Part shown: piece after piece, positions 23,250-60,016 of the stretch
Position numbering within the stretch: position 1 is the first letter of the stretch
Layout of the letters: every line of letters starts with the position of its first letter
Assembly (NCBI GenBank): GCA_018434945.1
Contig: JAHDOI010000061.1
Coordinates: forward strand, 1-64,000
Direction of reading: 5' to 3'
Length of the DNA: 64,000 bases
Source: Selenomonadales bacterium
Lineage (GTDB): Bacteria; Bacillota; Negativicutes; Sporomusales; UBA7701
Notes under the pieces: generated by a model
Told to the model about the DNA's origin: nothing
Seen by the model: only the letters and a program-made list of their open reading frames with translations
Databases searched by the model: none
Position numbers and translations under genes: made by a program

Positions 23250-23490
23250 CAAATCGACATCGCAAAGGCGATGAGCGGGAAAGTACGGGCGCTGCATCCT
23301 CCAAGAGAGCCGGGTTAGGTGGAAGCCGGCAGGAAAAGCGTTCGGAAAGCCCCCCGCGAGCCGTGGGCCGAAACACAGTAAGCCCTACCGCGTCCCCGGC
23401 GTTACAGGGCAGAGGCGAGCCGCAAGTCGGCTAATCTAGGTGGTACCGCGGGATAATAACCCCGTCCTTGTATAAGGACGGGGTTTTTTG
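23250..23490 (+). promoter_or_regulatory. T-box leader with terminator
   Basis: The leader has a full T-box layout. Stem I has a lower helix GCGGG (23275-23279) with CCCGC (23353-23357), the loop-E sequence AGTA (23282-23285) facing GAA (23345-23347), and an 8-bp upper helix (23286-23293 with 23337-23344). The conserved AGAGAG and GGTGGAAGCC stretches follow in the arm. The T-box AGGTGGTACCGCGG is at 23438-23451. The terminator pairs 23460-23469 with 23474-23483 and ends in six T. After GAA the loop reads AGC CC, so the specifier is AGC (Ser) or, shifted one base, GCC (Ala). The bulge TGGT expects a tRNA with A73, which fits Ala better than Ser. No synthetase gene follows. Confidence 0.92.
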
Positions 23491-23655: not shown

Positions 23656-24135
23656 ATGCGCGAATTACTGGAACTACTGGAAAAAGACCACACCCTCACC
23701 GTGGCGCAGCTGGCCGTCATGCTCGACAAGCCGCAGGAAGAGATCGCCGCCCTGATAAAGCAGTACGAAACCGATAAGACGATCGTCAAATACCAGACGA
23801 TCGTCAACTGGGAGAAAGCCGGTGCCGACAGGGTAACCGCCATCATCGAGGTCAGGATAACCCCCCAGCGGGAAGTCGGCTTCGACGCCATCGCCGAGCG
23901 CATCTACCGGTTCCCGGAGGTACGCAGCCTCTACCTCATGTCGGGCGCCTACGACCTCCTCGTCATCGTCGAGGCCAAGACGCTCAAAGACGCCGCCCAG
24001 TTTGTCTCCACCAAACTGTCGACCATCGAGGGTGTCATCGGCACAACCACCCACTTCATGCTCAAGCAGTACAAAGAAGCGGGCGTTATCCTCGAGGACG
24101 AGGAAGAAGACCGCAGGCTGGTGGTGTCGCCATGA
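23656..24135 (+). CDS. Lrp/AsnC-family regulator
   Basis: A 159-residue regulator with an N-terminal winged helix (LLEKDHTLTVAQLAVMLDKP) and a C-terminal RAM/AsnC ligand domain beginning near ADRVTAIIEVRITP. Such proteins form octamers and bind amino acids. GAGAGGTGG precedes the ATG. It overlaps the aminotransferase gene by four bases (ATGA), so it probably controls that gene or shares its ligand. The T-box terminator and a palindromic repeat lie upstream. Confidence 0.9.
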   Translation: MRELLELLEKDHTLTVAQLAVMLDKPQEEIAALIKQYETDKTIVKYQTIVNWEKAGADRVTAIIEVRITPQREVGFDAIAERIYRFPEVRSLYLMSGAYDLLVIVEAKTLKDAAQFVSTKLSTIEGVIGTTTHFMLKQYKEAGVILEDEEEDRRLVVSP

Positions 24136-25301
24136 CAACCTGGGCCGACCGCGTCTCGCCCACCGTCAAAGCCATCCCTCCCTCCGGCATCCGCCGCTTC
24201 TTCGACATCGTCGCCGAAACCAAAGGCGTCGTTTCCCTCGGGGTCGGCGAACCCGACTTCGTCACCCCCTGGCATATCCGCGAAAGCTGCGTCTACGGCC
24301 TCCAGCAGGGCTACACCGCCTACACCTCGAACTACGGCCTGTTGGAACTCCGCGAGGAGATCGTCAAAAACTGCGTCGCCAGCTACGGAGTGACCTACGA
24401 TCCCCGCAAAGAAGCGCTGGTCACGGTCGGCGTGAGCGAGGCGCTCGATCTGGCGATGCGGGCCATCCTCAGCCCCGGCGACGAAGTCCTGGTGCCCGAA
24501 CCGTGCTACGTCTCCTACAAAGCCTGCGTAGCCCTGGCCGGCGGCGTGCCGGTGACGGTACCGACAAAAATGGCGGACTGCTTCCGGGTTACCGTCGCCC
24601 AGCTCGAAGAACTCGTCACCCCCCGCACCAAGGCGCTGCTCATCGGTTACCCCAACAACCCCACCGGCGCAATCATGTCGAAAGCCGAGCTGGAGGCCAT
24701 CGCCGCCTTCGCGCTCAAGCACGACCTCATCGTCATCTCCGACGAAATTTACGCCAGCCTCACCTACGACGGCACCCACACCTGCTTCGCCGCCCTGCCC
24801 GGCATGCGCGACCGCACCATTCTTTTGAACGGCTTCTCCAAAGCCTACGCCATGACCGGCTGGCGGATCGGCTACGCCCTATCCAACGCCGACTTCATCG
24901 GCGCGATGACCAAGATCCACCAATACACCATGCTCTGCGCCCCCATCACCGCCCAGGTGGCCGCGATCGAGGCGCTGCGGCACGGCCAGTGCAACATGCT
25001 GCGGATGGTCGAGGAATACAACCGCCGCCGCCGCCTGATGGTGGATGGCTTCAAAACCATCGGACTCGACTGCTTCGAACCCAAGGGCGCCTTCTACATC
25101 TTCCCCTCCATCAAACAGACTGGCCTCAGTTCCCTCGCCTTCGCCGAGGAACTCCTCAAGGCCGAGAAAGTGGCCCTCGTGCCGGGCGACGCCTTCGGCG
25201 AAAGCGGGGAAGGCTTCGTGCGCTGCTCGTACGCCTCCTCGACCGCCAACCTCACCGAAGCCCTGACCCGCATCAACCGCTTCGTAAAAAAGTATATCTA
25301 A
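24132..25301 (+). CDS. PLP-dependent class I/II aminotransferase
   Basis: A 389-residue fold-type I aminotransferase. The cofactor lysine is in NGFSKAYAMTGWRIGY; YPNNPTG and SDEIYASL give the Asn and Asp/Tyr that hold PLP, and the C-terminal VRCSYASS holds the substrate-carboxylate arginine. Relatives include alanine, aromatic and PatA-type enzymes, so the amino donor is open. Translationally linked to the Lrp regulator. If the T-box controls this pair, alanine or serine metabolism would be the first guess (inference). Confidence 0.9.
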   Translation: MTTWADRVSPTVKAIPPSGIRRFFDIVAETKGVVSLGVGEPDFVTPWHIRESCVYGLQQGYTAYTSNYGLLELREEIVKNCVASYGVTYDPRKEALVTVGVSEALDLAMRAILSPGDEVLVPEPCYVSYKACVALAGGVPVTVPTKMADCFRVTVAQLEELVTPRTKALLIGYPNNPTGAIMSKAELEAIAAFALKHDLIVISDEIYASLTYDGTHTCFAALPGMRDRTILLNGFSKAYAMTGWRIGYALSNADFIGAMTKIHQYTMLCAPITAQVAAIEALRHGQCNMLRMVEEYNRRRRLMVDGFKTIGLDCFEPKGAFYIFPSIKQTGLSSLAFAEELLKAEKVALVPGDAFGESGEGFVRCSYASSTANLTEALTRINRFVKKYI

Positions 25302-50005: not shown

Positions 50006-51283
50006 TTATTTCCTCAGCCTGTCGATCACCCTGCGGGCAATATCCCGGCGCCAGTGCGCTCCCGCGAAGCCGATACTGTCAACGGCGTCATATGCCTTCT
50101 TGATTGCCCGCAGCACATCCTTATCCATAGCCGTCACGCCCAGCACCCGGCCGCCGTTTGTTACGATCCGGCCGCCCTTCAGGGCCGTGCCGGCATGGAA
50201 AACGACCGCCCCGGCAGACGCGGCCCCCTCGAGGCCGCTGATAGCTTCGCCCTTACAATACTCCCCGGGATAACCGCCGGCGGCCATAACAACACACACC
50301 GCCGCCTCGTCCTTCCAGTCTACCGCCGTTTTGTCCAGCGTCCCGTCGACGCACGCCTCCAGCACCGTCGGCAGGTCGCTGTCCAGCAGCGGCAGCACCA
50401 CCTGGGTCTCGGGGTCGCCGAAACGGGCGTTGAACTCCACCACCTTCGGTCCCGCGGCCGTTATCATCAGGCCGGCGTACAGGCAGCCGACGTAGGGACA
50501 CCCCTCGGCGCGCATCGCGTCCACCGCCGGCTGGAGGATCTCCTTCATCACCCGCTCCAGCACCGCCGGCGTAACCACCGGCGCCGGCGCGTAAGCGCCC
50601 ATGCCGCCGGTATTAGGCCCCCGGTCGTCATCGAACACCCGCTTGTGATCCTGGGCCGACACCATCGGCACGACCGTCTTGCCGTCGGTGAACGCAAGCA
50701 GCGAAGCCTCCTCGCCCTGCATGAACTCCTCGACGACCACCTGCGCCCCGGCTGTCCCGAAAACGGCGTCGGTCATGATCATATCGACCGCCGCCAGCGC
50801 GTCGCCCTCCGTCATCGCCACCACCACGCCCTTGCCGGCCGCAAGGCCGTCAGCCTTGACGACTATCGGGGCGCCCTGCTCCTTTATATAGGCCTTGGCG
50901 GCGGCAGGGTCGGTGAAAACGCCGTAGCCGGCGGTTGGTATGCCGTACTTGCGCATCAGATCCTTGGCAAACGCCTTCGAGCCCTCGATCCTGGCCGCCG
51001 CCTGCGTGGGGCCGAAAATCTTCAGGCCATGGGCGGCGAAGACGTCGACCACCCCGTTGGCCAGCGGCGCCTCCGGCCCCACCACAGTCAGGTCGATCTT
51101 CCTCTCCCAGGCGAAAGTAACCAGTGCGGTATTGTCCGTCACATCGATATCGACACACTCGGCCAGACCACCGATACCTGGGTTGCCGGGCGCGCAGTAA
51201 ATCTTCTCCACCCGCGGGCTGGCCGCCAGCTTCCACACCAGGGCGTGCTCCCGCCCGCCGCCGCCGATCACCAAAACTCGCAT
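50006..51283 (-). CDS. purD: phosphoribosylamine-glycine ligase
   Basis: A 425-residue ATP-grasp enzyme for the second step of purine synthesis. It begins MRVLVIGGGGREHALVWKLA, with PGNPGI, the ATP-grasp segment PIVVKADGLAAGKGVVVA and VVEFNARFGDPETQ. GAGGTGA six bases before ATG 51283 fixes the start; an in-frame ATG at 51292 is less likely. It is separated from purH by a palindromic repeat. Confidence 0.96.
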   Translation of the reverse strand: MRVLVIGGGGREHALVWKLAASPRVEKIYCAPGNPGIGGLAECVDIDVTDNTALVTFAWERKIDLTVVGPEAPLANGVVDVFAAHGLKIFGPTQAAARIEGSKAFAKDLMRKYGIPTAGYGVFTDPAAAKAYIKEQGAPIVVKADGLAAGKGVVVAMTEGDALAAVDMIMTDAVFGTAGAQVVVEEFMQGEEASLLAFTDGKTVVPMVSAQDHKRVFDDDRGPNTGGMGAYAPAPVVTPAVLERVMKEILQPAVDAMRAEGCPYVGCLYAGLMITAAGPKVVEFNARFGDPETQVVLPLLDSDLPTVLEACVDGTLDKTAVDWKDEAAVCVVMAAGGYPGEYCKGEAISGLEGAASAGAVVFHAGTALKGGRIVTNGGRVLGVTAMDKDVLRAIKKAYDAVDSIGFAGAHWRRDIARRVIDRLRK

Positions 51284-51337
51284 CAATATCACCTCTTATA
51301 TAAGTTCAAAGGCTTATTAAATGGCTTAGGCCATTCA

Positions 51338-51453: not shown

Positions 51454-52989
51454 CTAATGTTTAAAATGACGGACGCCCGTAAATACCATGGCAATGCCAT
51501 GCTCGTCCGCCGCCTTGACCGACTCCTCGTCGCGGACCGAGCCTCCCGGCTGGATGATAGCGGTGATCCCCGCCCTGGCCGCCGCGTCCACCGTATCCCG
51601 GAACGGGAAGAACGCGTCGGAAGCCAGCACGGCACCGTCGGCCGCCTCGCCAGCCTGGGTCAAGGCGATGTTCGCCGCCCCCACCCTGTTCATCTGCCCG
51701 GCGCCCACGCCGAGGGTGCGGTTGTCCGCAGCGACGACGATCGCGTTCGACTTGACATGCTTGACAACCTTCCAGGCGAAATCGAGCTGCTCCAGCTCGG
51801 CGGCGGTCGGCTGCCGCTTGCTCACGACCGTCATCTTCGCCTCAGGGTCGCCGGCGTCGGTATCCTGCACGAGGATGCCGCCCGACACCCGTTTGATATC
51901 CATCGCGCCCGCGTCTTTGCCGAACGCGGCCGCCAGCAGGCGGACATTCTTCTTCTCGCTCAGCACCGCTAAAGCCTCGGCGCTGTAGCCAGGCGCGATC
52001 ACCGCCTCGGCGAACAGTTGGCCGATTTGCTCGGCAGTGGCCTTATCCACCTCGCGGTTGAGGCCGATGATGCCGCCGAACGCCGAAACAGGGTCGGCCT
52101 CATACGCTTTGGCGTAAGCCGCCGCCAGGCTGTTACCCGTGCCGGTGCCGCAGGGATTGGTATGCTTGATGATCGTCGCCGCCGGCGCGGCGAACTCGTT
52201 CACGATATTGAAAGCGGCCTCGAGATCGACGATATTGTTGAACGACAACTCCTTGCCGTGGAGCTGTCTCGCGCCCGCCACCCCCGGCCCCGAAAAGCCC
52301 TGTTCGCGGTAAAAGGCCGCCTGCTGATGGGGATTCTCCCCGTAGCGCAAGTCCTGCACCTTGTCATATACAAGCTGCAGCCGCGCGGGAAAGCGACCCT
52401 GGCCGAGCTGCCCGGCCAGATAGCGGGCGATCCAGGCATCATACTCGGCTGTGTGGCTGTATGCCTCTCTCGCCAGCTCCATCCGTATTTCCTGGGAAAT
52501 TTCGCCCTTTTTCGTCAACTCCTCGGCGATCAGCCCGTAATTGGCCGGATTGACCACCACCGCCACATGGGCGAAGTTCTTGGCCGCCGCCCGGATCATC
52601 GCCGGTCCGCCGATATCGATATTCTCGACCGCCTCGCCCAGCGTTACGTCCGGCTTGGCGACCGTCTGGCGGAAGGGGTACAGATTTACCACCACCATAT
52701 CGATGCCCCTGATCTTGTGGTGGCGCATCGCCTGGACATGGTCGGGGTTATCGCGGATGGCGAGGATGCCGCCGTGGATGTACGGGTTGAGGGTCTTCAC
52801 CCGGCCGTCCATAATTTCCGGGAAACCGGTGACCTCGCTGACATACACCACGGGGATGCCGGCTTCCTTAAGCGTTTTCATCGTCCCGCCGGTCGAGATG
52901 ATCTCCACACCCAGACCGTGGAGGACACGGGCGAACTCGACCACCCCCGTCTTATCGGATACGCTTATAAGGGCCCGCTCAATCTTCAT
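51454..52989 (-). CDS. purH: bifunctional AICAR formyltransferase / IMP cyclohydrolase
   Basis: The 511-residue protein does the last two steps to IMP. The N-terminal cyclohydrolase (about 1-195) starts [20 protein letters not shown]. The C-terminal transformylase contains [24 protein letters not shown] with the catalytic Lys-His, and [12 protein letters not shown]. It begins nine bases after purN. Confidence 0.96.
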
Positions 52990-52998
52990 TTAAGCCAC

Positions 52999-53616
52999 CT
53001 ACCGTTTCTCAGTGATAATCACCTTGCGCCCCTCGATCCTGAGCCGACCTTCGCAGAACATGCCGATCGCCCGGGGATAGAGCCGGTGCTCGACATGGAG
53101 GATGCGCTCGGCTAAAGCGTGCTCGTCGTCGCCGTCCAGCACCGGCACGGCCTCCTGAAGAATGATCGGGCCGGTGTCCACGCCCTCGTCGACGAAGTGG
53201 ACCGTGCAGCCCGATACTTTGACCCCGTACCTGACCGCCTGGGCCTGGGCTTCCAGCCCGGGGAAGGCAGGCAGCAGCGCGGGGTGGATATTCATGATCC
53301 GGCCCGGGAACCGGCCGATGAAATCGCTGCTGAGAATGCGCATGAAGCCGGCCAGCACGACCAGCTCCACGTGATGGAGCTGAAGTTCGGCGGCGATCGC
53401 CTGCTCGAACGAACCCTTGTCGGCGAACTTCTTGCGTTCGATGACGGTGGTGGTGATGTCGAAGCCGGCCACCCGCTTCAAGGCCAGCGCGTTAGGATTG
53501 TCGCTGATCACGACGCCGATCTTCGCCTTCAACCGTTCAGCCAGGATGGCGTCGAGGATGGCCTGCAGATTGCTGCCCCGCCCCGACACCAGAACCCCGA
53601 GCACCGTCCTATTCAT
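52999..53616 (-). CDS. purN: phosphoribosylglycinamide formyltransferase
   Basis: The 205-residue folate-dependent GAR transformylase starts [19 protein letters not shown]. The catalytic Asn-His-Asp set is in [15 protein letters not shown] and [13 protein letters not shown]. It overlaps purM by eight bases. Confidence 0.95.
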
Positions 53617-54661
53617 CGAACACGCCTCCCTTGATGGTCACCGTCCGCTCGCCGGCCGTCACCGTGCCGATGACGTACGACTTTTCGCCGCGGCCGGCGA
53701 GGTCCTGGCGCACTGCCTCCGCCTCGTCCGCCGGCACAACGAGAATCATGCCGATGCCCATGTTGAACGTGCGGAACATCTCCTGCCAGGCCACCTGTCC
53801 CCACTCCCTGAGGAGGGTGAAGACCGGCGGCATCGGCCAGGCCGACGCGTCGACCGTCACGCCGCAGCCGGCCGGCAGCACCCGGGGGATATTGTCGTAA
53901 AAACCGCCGCCGGTAATATGTACGAGACCGCGGAGGTTAAATCTGCCGAACAGCGGCAGGCAAACCTTCGGATAAAGGCGCGTCGGGACGAGCAATTCCT
54001 CGCCCAACGTCCGGCCCAGTTCGGGTATCACCGCATCCACCCCGAACCCCTTCACGTCGAAACAGATCTTCCTAACCAGCGAAAAACCGTTCGAATGAAG
54101 GCCGCTCGACGGCAGGCCGATGAGCACGTCGCCCGCTTTGATAGCCTCGCCGGTTATCAGGCGGGACTTGTCGGCAATGCCGACCGCGAAACCGGCGATA
54201 TCGTACTCCCCGTCAGGGTAGAAGCCGGCCATCTCGGCCGTCTCGCCGCCGATGAGAGCGCAGCCCGACTCGCGGCAGGCGATGGCCACGCCGCTGACGA
54301 TCGCCGCCACCTTCTCCGGCTCCAGGCGGCCCACCGCCAGGTAATCGAGGAAAAACAGCGGTTCGGCCCCCTGCACCAGGATATCGTTTACGCACATCGC
54401 CACAGCGTCCTGGCCGATGGTGTCGTGCTTGTCCATCATGAAAGCCACCCTGAGCTTTGTGCCGACACCGTCGGTGCCGCTTACCAGCACAGGCTCCTTA
54501 TACCCGCCCGCGTTCAGGGCGAACAGGCCGCCGAAGCCGCCGATATCGCCCAGCACCTCAGGCCTGTACGTCGCCCGCACGTGCTTCTTCATCAGGTCCA
54601 CCGCCCGGTTGCCGGCGTCGATATCCACCCCGGCCTGGCGGTACGTCAATCCTTCGCTCAT
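53609..54661 (-). CDS. purM: phosphoribosylformylglycinamidine cyclo-ligase
   Basis: The 350-residue AIR synthetase begins [17 protein letters not shown], with [28 protein letters not shown] and [13 protein letters not shown]. The ATG overlaps the purF stop (ATGA). Confidence 0.96.
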
Positions 54662-56115
54662 CCCTCTCCCCCGCGTTTCATGCGGCTTGCGGCCGCTTCA
54701 AATACGAATTTGCTGCTCGCCGCGTCGTCCCCGCCGGGTATGCTGCAGGGATAGTCGCAGTTGAAACAGGCGTAACACATCCGATCATACTTAATGTTGG
54801 CCACCGACCCGTACAATCCCTCCAGCGAGAGATAATAAAGCGCGTCGGCGCCGATGAATTCCCTGATCTCCTCTATCTGCTTGCTGGCGGCGATCAGTTC
54901 CTTGCGGGCCGATGTATCGATGCCGTAATAGCAGGGATAGCCGATCGGCGGCGAGCTGACGCACATCATGACCGACGTCGCGCCAGCCTCCTTCAGCATC
55001 TTGACGATCTTGCCGCTCGTCGTGCCGCGGACGATCGAGTCATCCACCATGATGACCGACTTGCCCTCCACCACCGCCTTGTTGGCGTTCAGCTTTATGC
55101 GCACGCCCGTGTCCCGTTTCTGCTGCTCGGGCTGGATAAAGGTGCGGCCGATGTAACGGTTCTTTATCAGCCCTTCGGCAAAGGGCACGCCCGATTCGTA
55201 ACTGAAGCCAAGGGCCGCCGTAGTCCCCGAGTCAGGCACCGAGATGACGAGGTCGGCCTTGAAACCGCTCTCGCGGGCCAGCTGGCGCCCCATGGCGAAA
55301 CGGGCCGCGTACACGCTCTGGCCGTCGATGATGCTGTCGGGGCGCGCGAAATAGATATACTCAAAGATACACAGCGCCCGCCGTTTTTCCTCGCCGAAGC
55401 CGTAATAGCGGGGACCGGCATCATCGATAACCACCATCTCGCCCGGCGCCAGGTCGCGGATCATCTCCGCGCCCACAGAATCGAGCGCACACGACTCGGA
55501 CGCCAGCACCCAGCCGCCGTTGAGCTTGCCGATACAGAGCGGCCGGAAGCCGTGAGGATCGCGCACGCCGATGAGCTTGTCATCGGTCATGATCACCAGG
55601 CAATAAGCTCCTTCGATGCGGGCCACGCTCTCCAGCACCCGCTCCTCGATCGTGTTCTTGCCCGAACGGGCGATCAGATTGACGATCACCTCGCTGTCGA
55701 TCGACGTCTGGAATACGCTGCCCTTCTGCTCGAGATCGGCGCGCAGTTCGCGGGCGTTCGTGAGGTTGCCGTTGTGGGCGAGACTGATATGCCCGCCCGA
55801 ATACGTCACCATCAGCGGCTGGGTATTGATCAGCAGGCTCGACCCGGTGGTCGAATAACGCACATGGCCGATGGCGATATACGCCCCCTCCATCTCCGGC
55901 AGCCCTTTGCGGAACACCTCGCCCACCAGGCCCATGCCGCGCTGGATATCCATCTCGCAGCCGTCGGTCAGCGTGATGCCGGCGCTCTCCTGGCCGCGGT
56001 GTTGGAGGGCGTACAGACCCCAGTATGTGTTAAGGGCCACATCGTCATGGCGGGAATAAATGCCGAATACGCCGCACTCCTCGCGCGGTTTGTCACTCAT
56101 AAGTTCACAGTTCAC
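54658..56115 (-). CDS. purF: amidophosphoribosyltransferase
   Basis: A 485-residue enzyme for the first committed purine step. After a propeptide of about 13 residues the N-terminal nucleophile cysteine is in EECGVFGIY. The glutaminase part has RYSTTG and [10 protein letters not shown]; the PRPP site is [13 protein letters not shown]. The C-terminal cysteines ([12 protein letters not shown]) match the Fe-S form of B. subtilis. The start is GTG 56115 after AAGGAG; ATG 56100 is a weaker alternative. Confidence 0.95.
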
Positions 56116-56129
56116 GCTTGTTATTCTCC

Positions 56130-56840
56130 TTAAAACTTTTCGCCTGTCAGCCGGAACAGCACCTCTTTGTAAGCGTCCTCGACATCGCCGAGATCGCGGC
56201 GGAAACGGTCCTTGTCCAGTTTCTGGCCGGTCTCGCTGTCCCAGAAGCGGCAGGTGTCGGGGGATATCTCGTCGCCGAGGAGCAGCTGGCCTTTGTGAAG
56301 GCCGAACTCCAGCTTGAAATCGATCAGCTCGAGCTTCTTTTCCTTGAGATACTGGCCCATGATGGCGTTGATCTTCAGGCCCAGCTCCTGAATAGCCTTG
56401 AGCTGCGCGTCGTCGGCCAGCCCCATCGCCCTGGCGTGGTACTCGTTGATCAGCGGGTCGCCCAGTTCGTCGTTCTTGTAATAAAGCTCGACCACCGGCT
56501 GCGGCAGCTTGCGCCCCTCTTCCCAGCCGATGCGCTTCGCCAGGCTGCCGGCGGCGATGTTGCGGACAACAACCTCGATGGGCAGGATGGTCAGCGTCTT
56601 GACCAGCATCTCGCGGTCGCTGACCATGCGTACGAAATGGTGGGGAATGCCGTTCTTGCCCAGCAGATTGAAAAAGAAAGTGGAAATCTTGTTGTTCAGG
56701 ATGCCTTTGTTGAGGATAGTCCCCTTCTTGACGCCGTTGAAAGCGGTGGCGTCGTCCTTGAAATACACCAGGTACTCGTCGGGATTCTCGGTCGCGAATA
56801 CCTTTTTTGCCTTGCCTTCATAAAGCATTTTTGCCATCAT
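56130..56840 (-). CDS. purC: SAICAR synthetase
   Basis: The 236-residue ligase begins [20 protein letters not shown] with [29 protein letters not shown] and DFKLEFG. GGAGG is just before two adjacent ATG codons (56840 and 56837). It lies 17 bp after purE and 14 bp before purF. Confidence 0.96.
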
Positions 56841-56857: not shown

Positions 56858-57349
56858 TCATTTGTTCAGACTGGCAGTTACTTTGACGGCCTTCTGCTCG
56901 ACCTCGGCGGCCATCGTCCGGCGGTAGGCGGCCAGTCTTTCCCGCAGCGCGGGCTCGGCCGTCCCCAGGATCTGCACCGCGAACAGCGCCGCGTTCTTCG
57001 CCCCGTTGATCGCCATCGTCGCCACCGGGATACCGGCCGGCATCTGGGCGATGCTCAGCAGCGCGTCCATCCCGCCCAGCGAAGTACTGTTCACCGGCAC
57101 GCCGATAACCGGCAGCGTCGTGAAGCTGGCGACGACGCCCGGCAGATGTGCGGCGGCGCCCGCGGCGGCGATGAACACTCCGACGCCGCGGTCGGCGGCC
57201 GTTGTCACGAAATCGTGCACCTTCTGAGGGGTGCGGTGGGCGGAGGCAACAACAACCTCGGCGGCCACCCCGAACTCCTCCAGCGTCCTGAGCGCCGGCT
57301 CCAGCACCGGCAGATCGGAATCGCTGCCCATGATTATCGCTACTTTCAT
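56858..57349 (-). CDS. purE: N5-carboxyaminoimidazole ribonucleotide mutase
   Basis: The 163-residue class I PurE starts [29 protein letters not shown] holds the catalytic His, and [13 protein letters not shown] and [12 protein letters not shown] follow. It lies 30 bp after the permease. No purK is in the window. Confidence 0.96.
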
Positions 57350-57379: not shown

Positions 57380-58747
57380 CTAGGCCAGGAAAACGAACCT
57401 CACCACGACAAGCGCCGCCATCACGTAGACTATCCAGTGCACCTCACGGCCCCGCCCGGTCACCAGCTTGAGGAGCGGGTAGAAGACCAGGCCGGCGGAA
57501 ATGCCGTTAGCGATGCTGTATGTAAATGGCATCAGAGTAATTGTCAAAAACGCCGGCAAACCCTCGCTCAGATCGCCGAAATCGATATGCCGCACTCCCT
57601 CCATCATCAGCGCGCCGACGATTATCAGGGCCGGGGCGGTTGCCGCGTCCGGGATCAGTCCTGCCAGCGGCGTGAAAAACAGCGCCAGCAGGAACAGCAG
57701 GCCGCAGGTCACAGCCGTAAGGCCGGTGCGGCCGCCGACGCCGATGCCGGCGGCGCTCTCGATATACGACGTAATCGTGCTCGTGCCCAGAAGAGCGCCC
57801 AGGCTCACGCCGGTAGCGTCCACCAGCATCGCCTTCCCGATCCCCGGGAACCGGCCGTGCTTGTCCATCAGCCCGGCTTTGGTAGCCGTCCCGACCAGCG
57901 TTCCCATCGTATCGAACAGCTCCACGAACGTGAAGGTGAAAATAATCGTCACCAGCCCCATATTGAGGGCGCCCCAGATATCGAGAGCCAAAAAAGCGTT
58001 GCGGCTGAAATCCGGCACCGCCACCGGGCTGAAACCGGACGGCACCTTCACCACGCCGAACACAATCGCCAGCACGGTGGTCGTCACGATGCCGGCGAGA
58101 ATGGCGCCCCGCACCTTCCGGGCGGTCAACACACCGATGAGCAGCAGCCCGAACACCGCCAGCAGCACCTGCGGCTCCGCCAGGCTGCCCAGCTCGATCA
58201 CCGTCTCGAAGTGGGCCGGCGTGCCGTTGCCTCTAGCAGCGACAAGCTTCTCCAGCGTCGGCGGAATGAGCGACAGCCTGATCGTCATCAAACCGGACAG
58301 TTTCAGCCCGATGATAGTGATAAACAGGCCGATGCCGGCGGTGATGGCGTACTTCAGCGAAGCAGGTATCCCCTCCACTAGCAGTTGGCGGACGCGGGTC
58401 ACCGTCAAGGCGATGAAAACCAAGCCGGAAATGAACACCGCCCCAAGCGCTGTCTGCCACGGCACACCCATGCCGATAACCACCGTGAAAGCGTAGAAAG
58501 CGCTCAGCCCCATCCCCGGAGCCTGGGCGATCGGGTAATTGACGAACACCCCCATCATGATCGTCACCAAGCCGGCGCCAATGGCGGTCGCCAGCAGCAC
58601 GGCGTTCTTGTCCATCCCCGCCGTCCCCAGGACGCTGGGGTTCACGAGCAGGATATACGCCATCGTCATGAAAGTGGTAATGCCCGCCAGCACCTCAGTC
58701 TTCACGTCGGTTTGGCGCTCGCGCAGCGAAAACAGCTTCTCCAGCAT
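57380..58747 (-). CDS. purine permease, NCS2/AzgA (PbuG-like) type
   Basis: A 455-residue membrane protein with about 12-14 helices. It starts MLEKLFSLRERQTDVKTEVL with AGITTFMTMAYILLVNP and APGMGLSAFYAF, the AzgA subfamily pattern for guanine/hypoxanthine or adenine uptake. The start at 58747 has GGGTGA six bases upstream; a frame reaching 58783 is less likely. It is the first gene behind the tandem riboswitch, so uptake and synthesis share control by guanine and PRPP. Confidence 0.92.
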   Translation of the reverse strand: MLEKLFSLRERQTDVKTEVLAGITTFMTMAYILLVNPSVLGTAGMDKNAVLLATAIGAGLVTIMMGVFVNYPIAQAPGMGLSAFYAFTVVIGMGVPWQTALGAVFISGLVFIALTVTRVRQLLVEGIPASLKYAITAGIGLFITIIGLKLSGLMTIRLSLIPPTLEKLVAARGNGTPAHFETVIELGSLAEPQVLLAVFGLLLIGVLTARKVRGAILAGIVTTTVLAIVFGVVKVPSGFSPVAVPDFSRNAFLALDIWGALNMGLVTIIFTFTFVELFDTMGTLVGTATKAGLMDKHGRFPGIGKAMLVDATGVSLGALLGTSTITSYIESAAGIGVGGRTGLTAVTCGLLFLLALFFTPLAGLIPDAATAPALIIVGALMMEGVRHIDFGDLSEGLPAFLTITLMPFTYSIANGISAGLVFYPLLKLVTGRGREVHWIVYVMAALVVVRFVFLA

Positions 58748-58844
58748 ATCTTCACCCGTCCATTCTGCTAGACTGTTTCCCATTATACCCGCAGGGCCGT
58801 TTTTTACTCACGGCGACGGCGACACCCATTGCCAGTTACGCCCG

Positions 58845-58910
58845 GGAAAACAAATAAACCCGGCGGGGGATTTTCCATCTCGTAATGAGCGAAACCTCCC
58901 CGCCCGGGTT
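58845..58910 (-). terminator. terminator of the purine riboswitch expression platform
   Basis: On the minus strand AACCCGGGCGGGGA pairs, with a slipped base, with TCCCCCGCCGGGTT, and TTTATTTGTTTT follows. The first arm overlaps the 3' part of the PRPP aptamer, so ligand-bound aptamer and terminator exclude each other. Confidence 0.8.
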
Positions 58911-59020
58911 TTTATCCCTCCGGTGTAGCGTCACCGAGTGGCGCCTGTACCACTCGGTCCAGGCCAAGCCGAAGCGCAGCACGAGCGGCGTCGGTCATGC
59001 GGAACCCTAGGTACACTTTC
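58896..59020 (-). promoter_or_regulatory. PRPP riboswitch (ykkC subtype 2b)
   Basis: The minus strand reads GTGAAAGTGTACCTAGGG, then TTCCGC, and later CTGGACCGAGTGGTACAGGC and a 3' GGGAUAAAAACCCGGGCGG-type segment. These are the conserved stretches of the ykkC 2b class that binds PRPP. It lies directly after the guanine aptamer and before the terminator. The 3' edge is approximate. Confidence 0.85.
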
Positions 59021-59021
59021 A

Positions 59022-59088
59022 CCCGTAGTCAGACGATTTACGGTCGCCTGGTATGAACATTTGGGCCGTATCCCCAAAATTATACGAG
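59022..59088 (-). promoter_or_regulatory. guanine riboswitch aptamer
   Basis: The three-way junction is complete. P1 pairs CTCGTA (59088-59083) with TACGGG (59027-59022). P2 pairs TTTGGG with CCCAAA around GATACGG. P3 pairs CAGGCGA with TCGTCTG around CCGTAAA. The junction reads GTTCATACC and GACTACG. The base before the 3' P1 strand is C (position 74 in the usual numbering), which specifies guanine rather than adenine. Confidence 0.92.
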
Positions 59089-59108
59089 CTATTCATTTGT
59101 ACATATTT

Positions 59109-59138
59109 ATTTTACCGCCCGGGGCGGTAAAGTGTCAA
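59109..59138 (-). promoter_or_regulatory. purine operon promoter with palindromic spacer
   Basis: On the minus strand TTGACA (59138-59133), 18 bases and TAAAAT (59114-59109). The 21-base palindrome 59111-59131 (arms TTTACCGCC and GGCGGTAAA) fills the spacer and would be covered by polymerase, as for an operator. Confidence 0.75.
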
Positions 59139-59194
59139 CGAAAAACTGAACCTTTTTGACAACAGGCGCCAAAACGTTCGCATTTTACACCCAC

Positions 59195-60016
59195 CTACCT
59201 CAGCAACATATCGGTCACCGACAACACGATCTCGATGGCGATGAGGATGATCACCGCCCACTCCAGACGATTGCCGCGCTTGGCGTGGGCCAGTCCCGCG
59301 AACACCGTGGTTATATCCATCAGCGCATCCGTCTTGTGGCGGATACGCTCGTTACGGTCGGCAAGCTCGAACAGTGCCCCCAGTTCGTCGTAGAGCGCCG
59401 CCGCGTCCTCGTTCACCCACGTGATATCCGGCTTATCGAGCAGCATGATATACGACAGCGTGCTCAGGCGGAAACCGAGGATGCGTGCCGACATCCGGGC
59501 CAATTGCTCGTCCGACATCGTCAGCCGCCCCTGCCCCAAGAGCGACACAATATCCTCGATCTCGTCCAGCAGAGCATTCGTCCCGAGCTCCGTCCGCTCC
59601 AGCGCCGCCGACTTCGCCAGCACCGTAGCGACCAGTTCCCGCTGATAGCCCTCCTCGCGCGGCACAACCAGGCAATCGTTGTTGACCGACGGCTCCTCCT
59701 CCGCCGAGACTTCAAGGCGATAATCGTCGGTGTGCGCAAGGCTGCTTACATTCGCCAGACCGCTCTCCACCTGCCCGAGATAACGGATCACATCCATGAT
59801 CTCGTGATGCTGGCAATTCACGAACACCAGCGAGCCGAACGAAAAAATATGCACCGACTTATCGGCCGGCTCCAGCAGCACGCCCTTCAGCGCGCTCTCG
59901 CCCAGCGCCAGCGAGTCCTCCCACCGGTACTTGCGGCGAATGCCGAAATGAGCGGCGATGGCGTTGAGACCGATCTCGCTCGTCAGCGCGGCCGCCTTGA
60001 ACTGGGCGGTTGCCAT
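59195..60016 (-). CDS. RMD1/DUF155-family protein
   Basis: A 273-residue protein with the RMD1/DUF155 pattern: LEPADKSVHIFSFGSLVFVNC, DIIRYLG-like stretch near residue 80 and a C-terminal helix (WAVIILIAIEIVLSVTDMLL) that probably anchors it in the membrane. Yeast RMD1 relatives act at mitochondria; no bacterial function is known to me. It follows speD by 13 bp, so it is co-transcribed with polyamine synthesis. Confidence 0.8.
   Translation of the reverse strand: MATAQFKAAALTSEIGLNAIAAHFGIRRKYRWEDSLALGESALKGVLLEPADKSVHIFSFGSLVFVNCQHHEIMDVIRYLGQVESGLANVSSLAHTDDYRLEVSAEEEPSVNNDCLVVPREEGYQRELVATVLAKSAALERTELGTNALLDEIEDIVSLLGQGRLTMSDEQLARMSARILGFRLSTLSYIMLLDKPDITWVNEDAAALYDELGALFELADRNERIRHKTDALMDITTVFAGLAHAKRGNRLEWAVIILIAIEIVLSVTDMLLR

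Follow-up and report, generated by a model that had tools for sequence, protein, structure and literature searches.

How two aptamers for different ligands can act on one terminator is the question raised by a leader in a 64,000-nucleotide stretch of DNA from a Selenomonadales bacterium (the window; all positions below are those of this stretch). The first-pass annotation read the minus strand of 58845-59138 as a guanine aptamer with C at the specificity base, followed by a ykkC-2b PRPP aptamer and by one terminator whose first arm overlaps the PRPP aptamer. It placed this leader before a purine permease and purE-C-F-M-N-H-D, and took it for a two-input switch known from Firmicutes, in which guanine favours termination and PRPP favours read-through. 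In 2018, Sherlock et al. reported the guanine-PRPP tandem, first in 127 and then in 192 examples, and measured its IMPLY logic with the codA tandem of B. megaterium (PMC5912903). They left the coupling mechanism open, with a steric clash among the options (PMC5912903). Knappenberger et al. proposed that P0 and guanine P1 are mutually exclusive (PMC6031431), and a 2022 paper still described the coupling between the aptamers as not established (PMC9481103).

In the present study, we found that the locus is very probably a transcription-terminating guanine-PRPP tandem, with the PRPP aptamer in the loop of the guanine antiterminator, that would control the permease and most of the genes for IMP synthesis. 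With somewhat less confidence, we consider it likely that P0 is the guanine antiterminator holding the PRPP aptamer, that the PRPP module can be lost with the guanine switch intact (as at xpt in a Pelosinus-type genus), and that a PurR operator is also present, PRPP being sensed twice, by a protein at initiation and by an RNA at termination. Ligand binding, strand exchange, and PurR binding at this locus we infer from the sequence and from what has been published on its relatives. The comparative support for the nested antiterminator, the putative fossil PRPP aptamers, and the double sensing of PRPP are new here. The coordinates are given in Table 1.

Table 1. Features of the leader, its promoter region, and the downstream genes (positions in the window)
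Feature	Position	Strand	Basis or remark
PurBox 1 (AAATG-CGAA-CGTTT)	59172..59185	minus	half of predicted PurR operator
PurBox 2, inverted (AAAGG-TTCA-GTTTT)	59142..59155	minus	3 bp upstream of -35
Promoter TTGACA-18-TAAAAT	59109..59138	minus	11/12 consensus match; same arrangement in relatives
Guanine aptamer core	59022..59090	minus	RF00167, 77.8 bits over 59107-59006
Shared triplet GGG (guanine P1 3' strand and PRPP P0 5' strand)	59022..59024	minus	sequence
P0 (antiterminator) 5' strand GGGUGAAA	59017..59024	minus	pairs with 58894-58887
PRPP aptamer, ykkC subtype 2b	58899..59021	minus	RF00442, 59.7 bits
P0 (antiterminator) 3' strand UUUCGCUC	58887..58894	minus	also within terminator 5' arm
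Intrinsic terminator hairpin	58856..58911	minus	-32 kcal/mol, then UUUAUUUGUUUU; U tract 58858-58847
Purine permease (Xan_ur_permease family)	57380..58783	minus	PF00860, 138.6 bits; start probably ATG at 58747
purE	56858..57349	minus	TIGR01162
purC	56130..56840	minus	TIGR00081
purF	54658..56115	minus	TIGR01134
purM	53609..54661	minus	TIGR00878
purN	52999..53616	minus	TIGR00639
purH	51454..52989	minus	TIGR00355
purD	50006..51292	minus	TIGR00877

The order of the two aptamers on the minus strand was as first annotated. The purine covariance model matched 59107-59006 (-) with 77.8 bits against a gathering score of 37, and no second RF00167 match above threshold was found near the leader or elsewhere in the genome. 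Guanine P1 consists of 59088-59083 paired with 59027-59022. The specificity base, C74, is indeed C (59028, in the context GAC-U), as in aptamers for guanine and not adenine. The folding energy of the leader was better than that of 100 of 100 shuffled sequences (z = -3.25). SCARNA23 and further weak Rfam matches were dismissed as chance.

For the second aptamer, RF00442 (labelled guanidine-I in Rfam) matched 59021-58899 (-) with 59.7 bits and an E value of 3.8e-10, but narrowly missed the gathering score of 63. A score just below gathering is usual for subtype 2; other tandem partners in the class scored about 46-63 bits. The proposed 'ykkC-III/2b' model conflated two families: ykkC-III is guanidine-III, and RF00442 was the sole ykkC-type family matching at the leader.

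Y49 tells subtype 2 from guanidine-I, and G96 tells PRPP from ppGpp aptamers (PMC6031431). In the window, the ykkC fold has U at 58952 for Y49 and a P0 helix of -7.2 kcal/mol, with C75 at 58925 and G96 at 58904; G104 and G105 (58896 and 58895) lie immediately beyond the end of the RF00442 match. The crystal numbering was carried over via the Thermoanaerobacter tandems, where C75, C77, G95-G97, A101, A103, G104, and G105 all match, and the segment containing G96 is equally long in the window and in those tandems. Position 101 is G in the window and in most class members, and A, contacting the pyrophosphate, in the crystal structure.

Recognition of ppGpp (subtype 2a), or of some other ykkC ligand, by the second aptamer has to be weighed, given that the Rfam model cannot tell the subtypes apart, that the single change G96A turns PRPP into ppGpp specificity (PMC6031431), and that three further ykkC aptamers in the same genome resemble ppGpp types. 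Of these three, one is located at a larA-like gene, one between ilvB and ilvN, and one at a glutamate-synthase-like gene (gene names by eye), and their contexts, together with a segment about 2 bases shorter around the G96 position, would fit ppGpp. It is this difference in length and in the kind of gene, with the pur genes downstream here and G96 kept in the window and in 66 of 66 non-redundant tandems (Y49 in 65), that makes a ligand other than PRPP extremely improbable at this leader. The assignment of the two ligands is supported by the diagnostic bases (C74 in the guanine aptamer, Y49 and G96 in the PRPP aptamer), the purine genes downstream, and the close kinship to characterised tandems. 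In L003 (1501-1600), a ppGpp-type ykkC aptamer is found between ilvB and ilvN, within what is usually one operon.

By its arrangement, the window tandem is another case of the published guanine-PRPP IMPLY tandem, which is common in the class. The junction pattern (GACTAYNNNTRAAAGT..CTWGGGTTCC) detected the tandem in 41 of 380 class genomes, which is a lower bound, as the pattern is strict except for the shared triplet, which was left open. Among named species, it was found in 49 stretches, all from Firmicutes broadly defined (Sporomusa, Pelosinus, Thermoanaerobacter, Caldanaerobacter, Brevibacillus, Paenibacillus, Tumebacillus, Geosporobacter, and others). About 48 of the 66 tandems have a permease as their first gene, and the rest have purE or a purL-like, xpt-like, or phosphorylase-like gene, as named from inspection of the N-termini and not by model.

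At the junction, UGAAA separates GGG from GUGUACC, which agrees with the 5-7 nt between the P1 stems of such tandems, and a single terminator is common to both aptamers. The overlap that had been annotated is present: the terminator 5' arm includes the 3' strands of P3 (58908-58906) and P0. The annotated end at 58845 lies slightly beyond the U tract. A simple terminator scan gave no call for the hairpin at 58911-58856, probably due to the internal loops in its stem and the interrupted U tract.

CUC is present as both partners of the shared triplet (59024-59022), which would pair alternately with the 5' strand of guanine P1 or, starting P0, with 58889-58887 in the 3' strand of P0. In folding calculations that leave out ligands and tertiary contacts, P1 and P0 in the window have -6.9 and -7.2 kcal/mol, and the nascent RNA short of the terminator 3' arm has -81.2 kcal/mol with P1 and -81.5 kcal/mol with P0. 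For the full leader, the values are -104.9 (terminated) versus -92.0 kcal/mol. As the completed terminator is favoured over P0 by about 13 kcal/mol, the choice must fall during transcription, and the ligand-free 'on' state would be kinetic.

In the proposed mechanism, P0 can form in the ligand-free RNA and would delay the terminator, leaving the genes on. Guanine would hold P1, so that the full P0 is blocked, the terminator folds, and the genes are off. PRPP would clamp P0 and P3, reclaim the triplet, and occupy the terminator 5' arm even with guanine bound, so that the genes are on (IMPLY). With the PRPP aptamer nested in the guanine antiterminator, this logic would follow directly, with no extra assumptions. 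The directions of both ligand effects claimed in the first-pass annotation agree with the sequence and with the published tandem (PMC5912903).

In the 66 tandems, the shared triplet was GAG (38), GGG (25), GGA (2), or GGC (1), although the search pattern had left it as NNN, and the junction register was almost constant. In both GGA tandems, the guanine 5' strand becomes UUC, by which P1 is kept, and the P0 partner is altered too. As the triplet is nearly invariant, covariation support is thin, and we dropped three-way covariation as the main proof. L069, L090, L093, L109, and L112 have no clean outer P0 helix, and shuffle tests of the antiterminator, performed leader by leader, gave modest results (typically 2-20 of 200).

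We then compared the class guanine leaders in which no PRPP aptamer was detectable. These retain the strand pair GAGUGAAA...UUUCGCUC, with UUUCGCUC within the terminator 5' arm, and thus the guanine antiterminator appears to enclose the PRPP aptamer. About 24 of about 31 guanine leaders without an intact ykkC aptamer (those with a CUC/UUC-type P1, counted by hand) retain 7 or more contiguous pairs from the shared strand to one further downstream, usually UUUCGCUC, and compensated variants of the antiterminator occur (GAGUGGA/UCCGCUC and AUGGAA/UUCCAU). Judged from these sequences, where a guanine leader has no intact ykkC aptamer, its P0 is just a guanine antiterminator of the classical kind.

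These leaders bear on two other readings of the tandem. Tandem riboswitches mostly act independently (PMC9481103), and two side-by-side switches with simply additive outputs (NOT A AND B) and no strand sharing would follow that rule. However, they are very unlikely here, considering the single terminator, the fixed register, the need of P1 and P0 for the same three bases, the retention of both strands in leaders without the ykkC core, and the IMPLY behaviour measured in B. megaterium (PMC5912903). A steric clash between the two aptamers instead of a strand swap, which is among the options of Sherlock et al., is unlikely to a lesser degree: the aptamers are tightly packed, and cleavage at the 5' end of the PRPP aptamer rises with guanine (PMC5912903), but strand sharing accounts for the same probing data and also for the P0 strands kept without the PRPP aptamer. 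We therefore favour strand exchange within a nested antiterminator.

In eight genomes of one Pelosinus-type genus, which takes in P. fermentans JBW45 and P. propionicus (with identical leaders), the guanine aptamer is found at both the pur operon and xpt; the identity of xpt was confirmed by model match in one genome of this genus and in one Sporomusa-order relative. The mean identities among the pur leaders were 95% for the guanine aptamer, 91% for the insert, and 90% for P0 plus terminator, and those among the xpt leaders were 99%, 64% (minimum 40%), and 90%, respectively. In xpt leaders across the class, the RF00442 score of the insert drops from 49 bits to undetectable, with the guanine model at about 70-81 bits. 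This suggests that the PRPP insert in the Pelosinus-type xpt leaders is decaying, with P1, P0, and the terminator retained. The divergent inserts might instead be a new ykkC variant for a different ligand, as some insert helices (UGUAUC/GAUACA and others) survive in part, but a ligand-binding core that drifts freely between flanks held at 90-99% makes this improbable, and we keep to the reading as fossils. Intact tandems precede xpt-like genes in Brevibacillus and Paenibacillus; thus, loss of the PRPP aptamer is likelier than gain.

Some further leaders were observed. In L188 (G038 C21), a guanine leader before a permease, the PRPP aptamer has shrunk to the remnant GUGUUCCG, and the P0 strands, terminator, and PurBoxes are kept. 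In L176, L186, L197, and L200, the same antiterminator belongs to a guanine riboswitch, and the gene that follows begins with MFTI/MFTL..LGGCAFLRMGS and probably encodes a xanthine dehydrogenase FAD subunit (by eye). The guanine leaders L183, L190, and L209, among them a tandem whose junction has one additional base, precede a gene of 359 aa that has GVIVNGLPQGLLALTFGFASVPTAAGF as its N-terminal motif.

Downstream of the leader, the model matches agree with the annotated order of the permease and pur genes. The description as the 'whole purine operon', however, went too far. We found purL on contig C50 (a 1265-aa open frame, with the long single-chain FGAM synthase TIGR01857 as best match) and purB on contig C52, and the operon thus comprises most of IMP synthesis but is incomplete. 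On C50, no purine or ykkC aptamer was detected, and the ykkC match on C52 is about 40 kb away from purB. The gene directly upstream of the operon (59195-60016, minus strand) encodes a DUF155 (RMND1/Sif2 family) protein. Elsewhere in the window, a T-box leader (23262-23472, plus strand; 110 bits) precedes an Lrp/AsnC-like regulator and an aminotransferase-like gene (23656-25301; read from the translations).

Transcription would start near 59102. Upstream of the promoter, two inverted 14-bp boxes with a 16-bp spacer form a predicted PurR operator, in line with the central CGAA and the distance of 16-17 bp expected for PurBox pairs; the centre of the second, TTCA, is one base off TTCG. CGAAC-N24-GTTC is present in 39 of the 39 class tandem leaders with sufficient upstream sequence, with invariant spacing and unconserved intervening bases. 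The PurBox pair was also found in one of the other tandems, and was absent from the xpt leaders examined. PurR is encoded in the genome (TIGR01743, 302.8 bits; cut-off, 258.7), and of the 60 relatives compared, each of the 34 with a tandem encodes it too. A genome-wide PurBox scan gave this site and one other, not more than the reversed-pattern control, and we claim no regulon.

In the case of B. subtilis PurR, the PurBox pair has the same arrangement, and PRPP induces by releasing PurR, which ppGpp counteracts (PMC8789054). At the present operon, PurR on the two PurBoxes probably represses initiation, and PRPP would release it; PRPP is thus probably read twice, by the PurR protein and by the RNA. 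The first-pass annotation placed import and synthesis under one gate. The shared RNA switch stands, but it is not the sole gate, as the PurR operator upstream had been overlooked. Among the open-access papers searched, we found none combining 'PurR' with 'PRPP riboswitch'.

Between -35 and -10, a perfect inverted repeat, TTTACCGCCC-C-GGGCGGTAAA, is located at 59111-59131 (minus strand). In close relatives this spacer has other inverted repeats (GCCGCC..GGCGGC and CTGCC..GGCAG), and in distant relatives none. L211 and L212 are purine-aptamer leaders with PurBox pairs before a lipoprotein that probably belongs to nucleoside ABC uptake systems (by eye).

Since leaders that have lost the PRPP core still have the shared strands, and P1 and P0 are almost equal in energy, the three-strand exchange model is directly testable, with natural mutants at hand. 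The double sensing raises the question of why one operon should need a protein as well as an RNA to sense the same metabolite.

The leader of the B. subtilis pur operon has a guanine riboswitch; to our knowledge, it has no PRPP aptamer, whereas the window has one in the antiterminator loop. The two leaders are alike in the PurBoxes just upstream of -35 (PMC8789054), the guanine aptamer, and the pur genes. In B. subtilis, purL and purB are inside the pur operon, unlike in the window. The guanine riboswitches that precede xpt, xdh-like, and permease genes in the class share with the window the same P1, the GAGUGAAA/UUUCGCUC antiterminator, and the kind of terminator, but their PRPP aptamer is absent or degenerate between the antiterminator strands. 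As in the tandem of Sherlock et al., about 5 nt lie between the guanine aptamer and the ykkC-2b aptamer that directly follows it, the single terminator overlaps the PRPP aptamer, and purine genes are downstream; the window differs in its origin from Negativicutes, the permease as first gene, G for A at position 101, and the PurR operator that closely precedes the promoter. With the T. mathranii tandem (6CK5 and 6CK4; Knappenberger et al. 2018), it shares G96, C75, C77, G104, G105, and P0, and the proposed mutual exclusion of P0 and guanine P1. Beyond that tandem, P0 in the window would also be the antiterminator that relatives without a detectable PRPP aptamer have kept.
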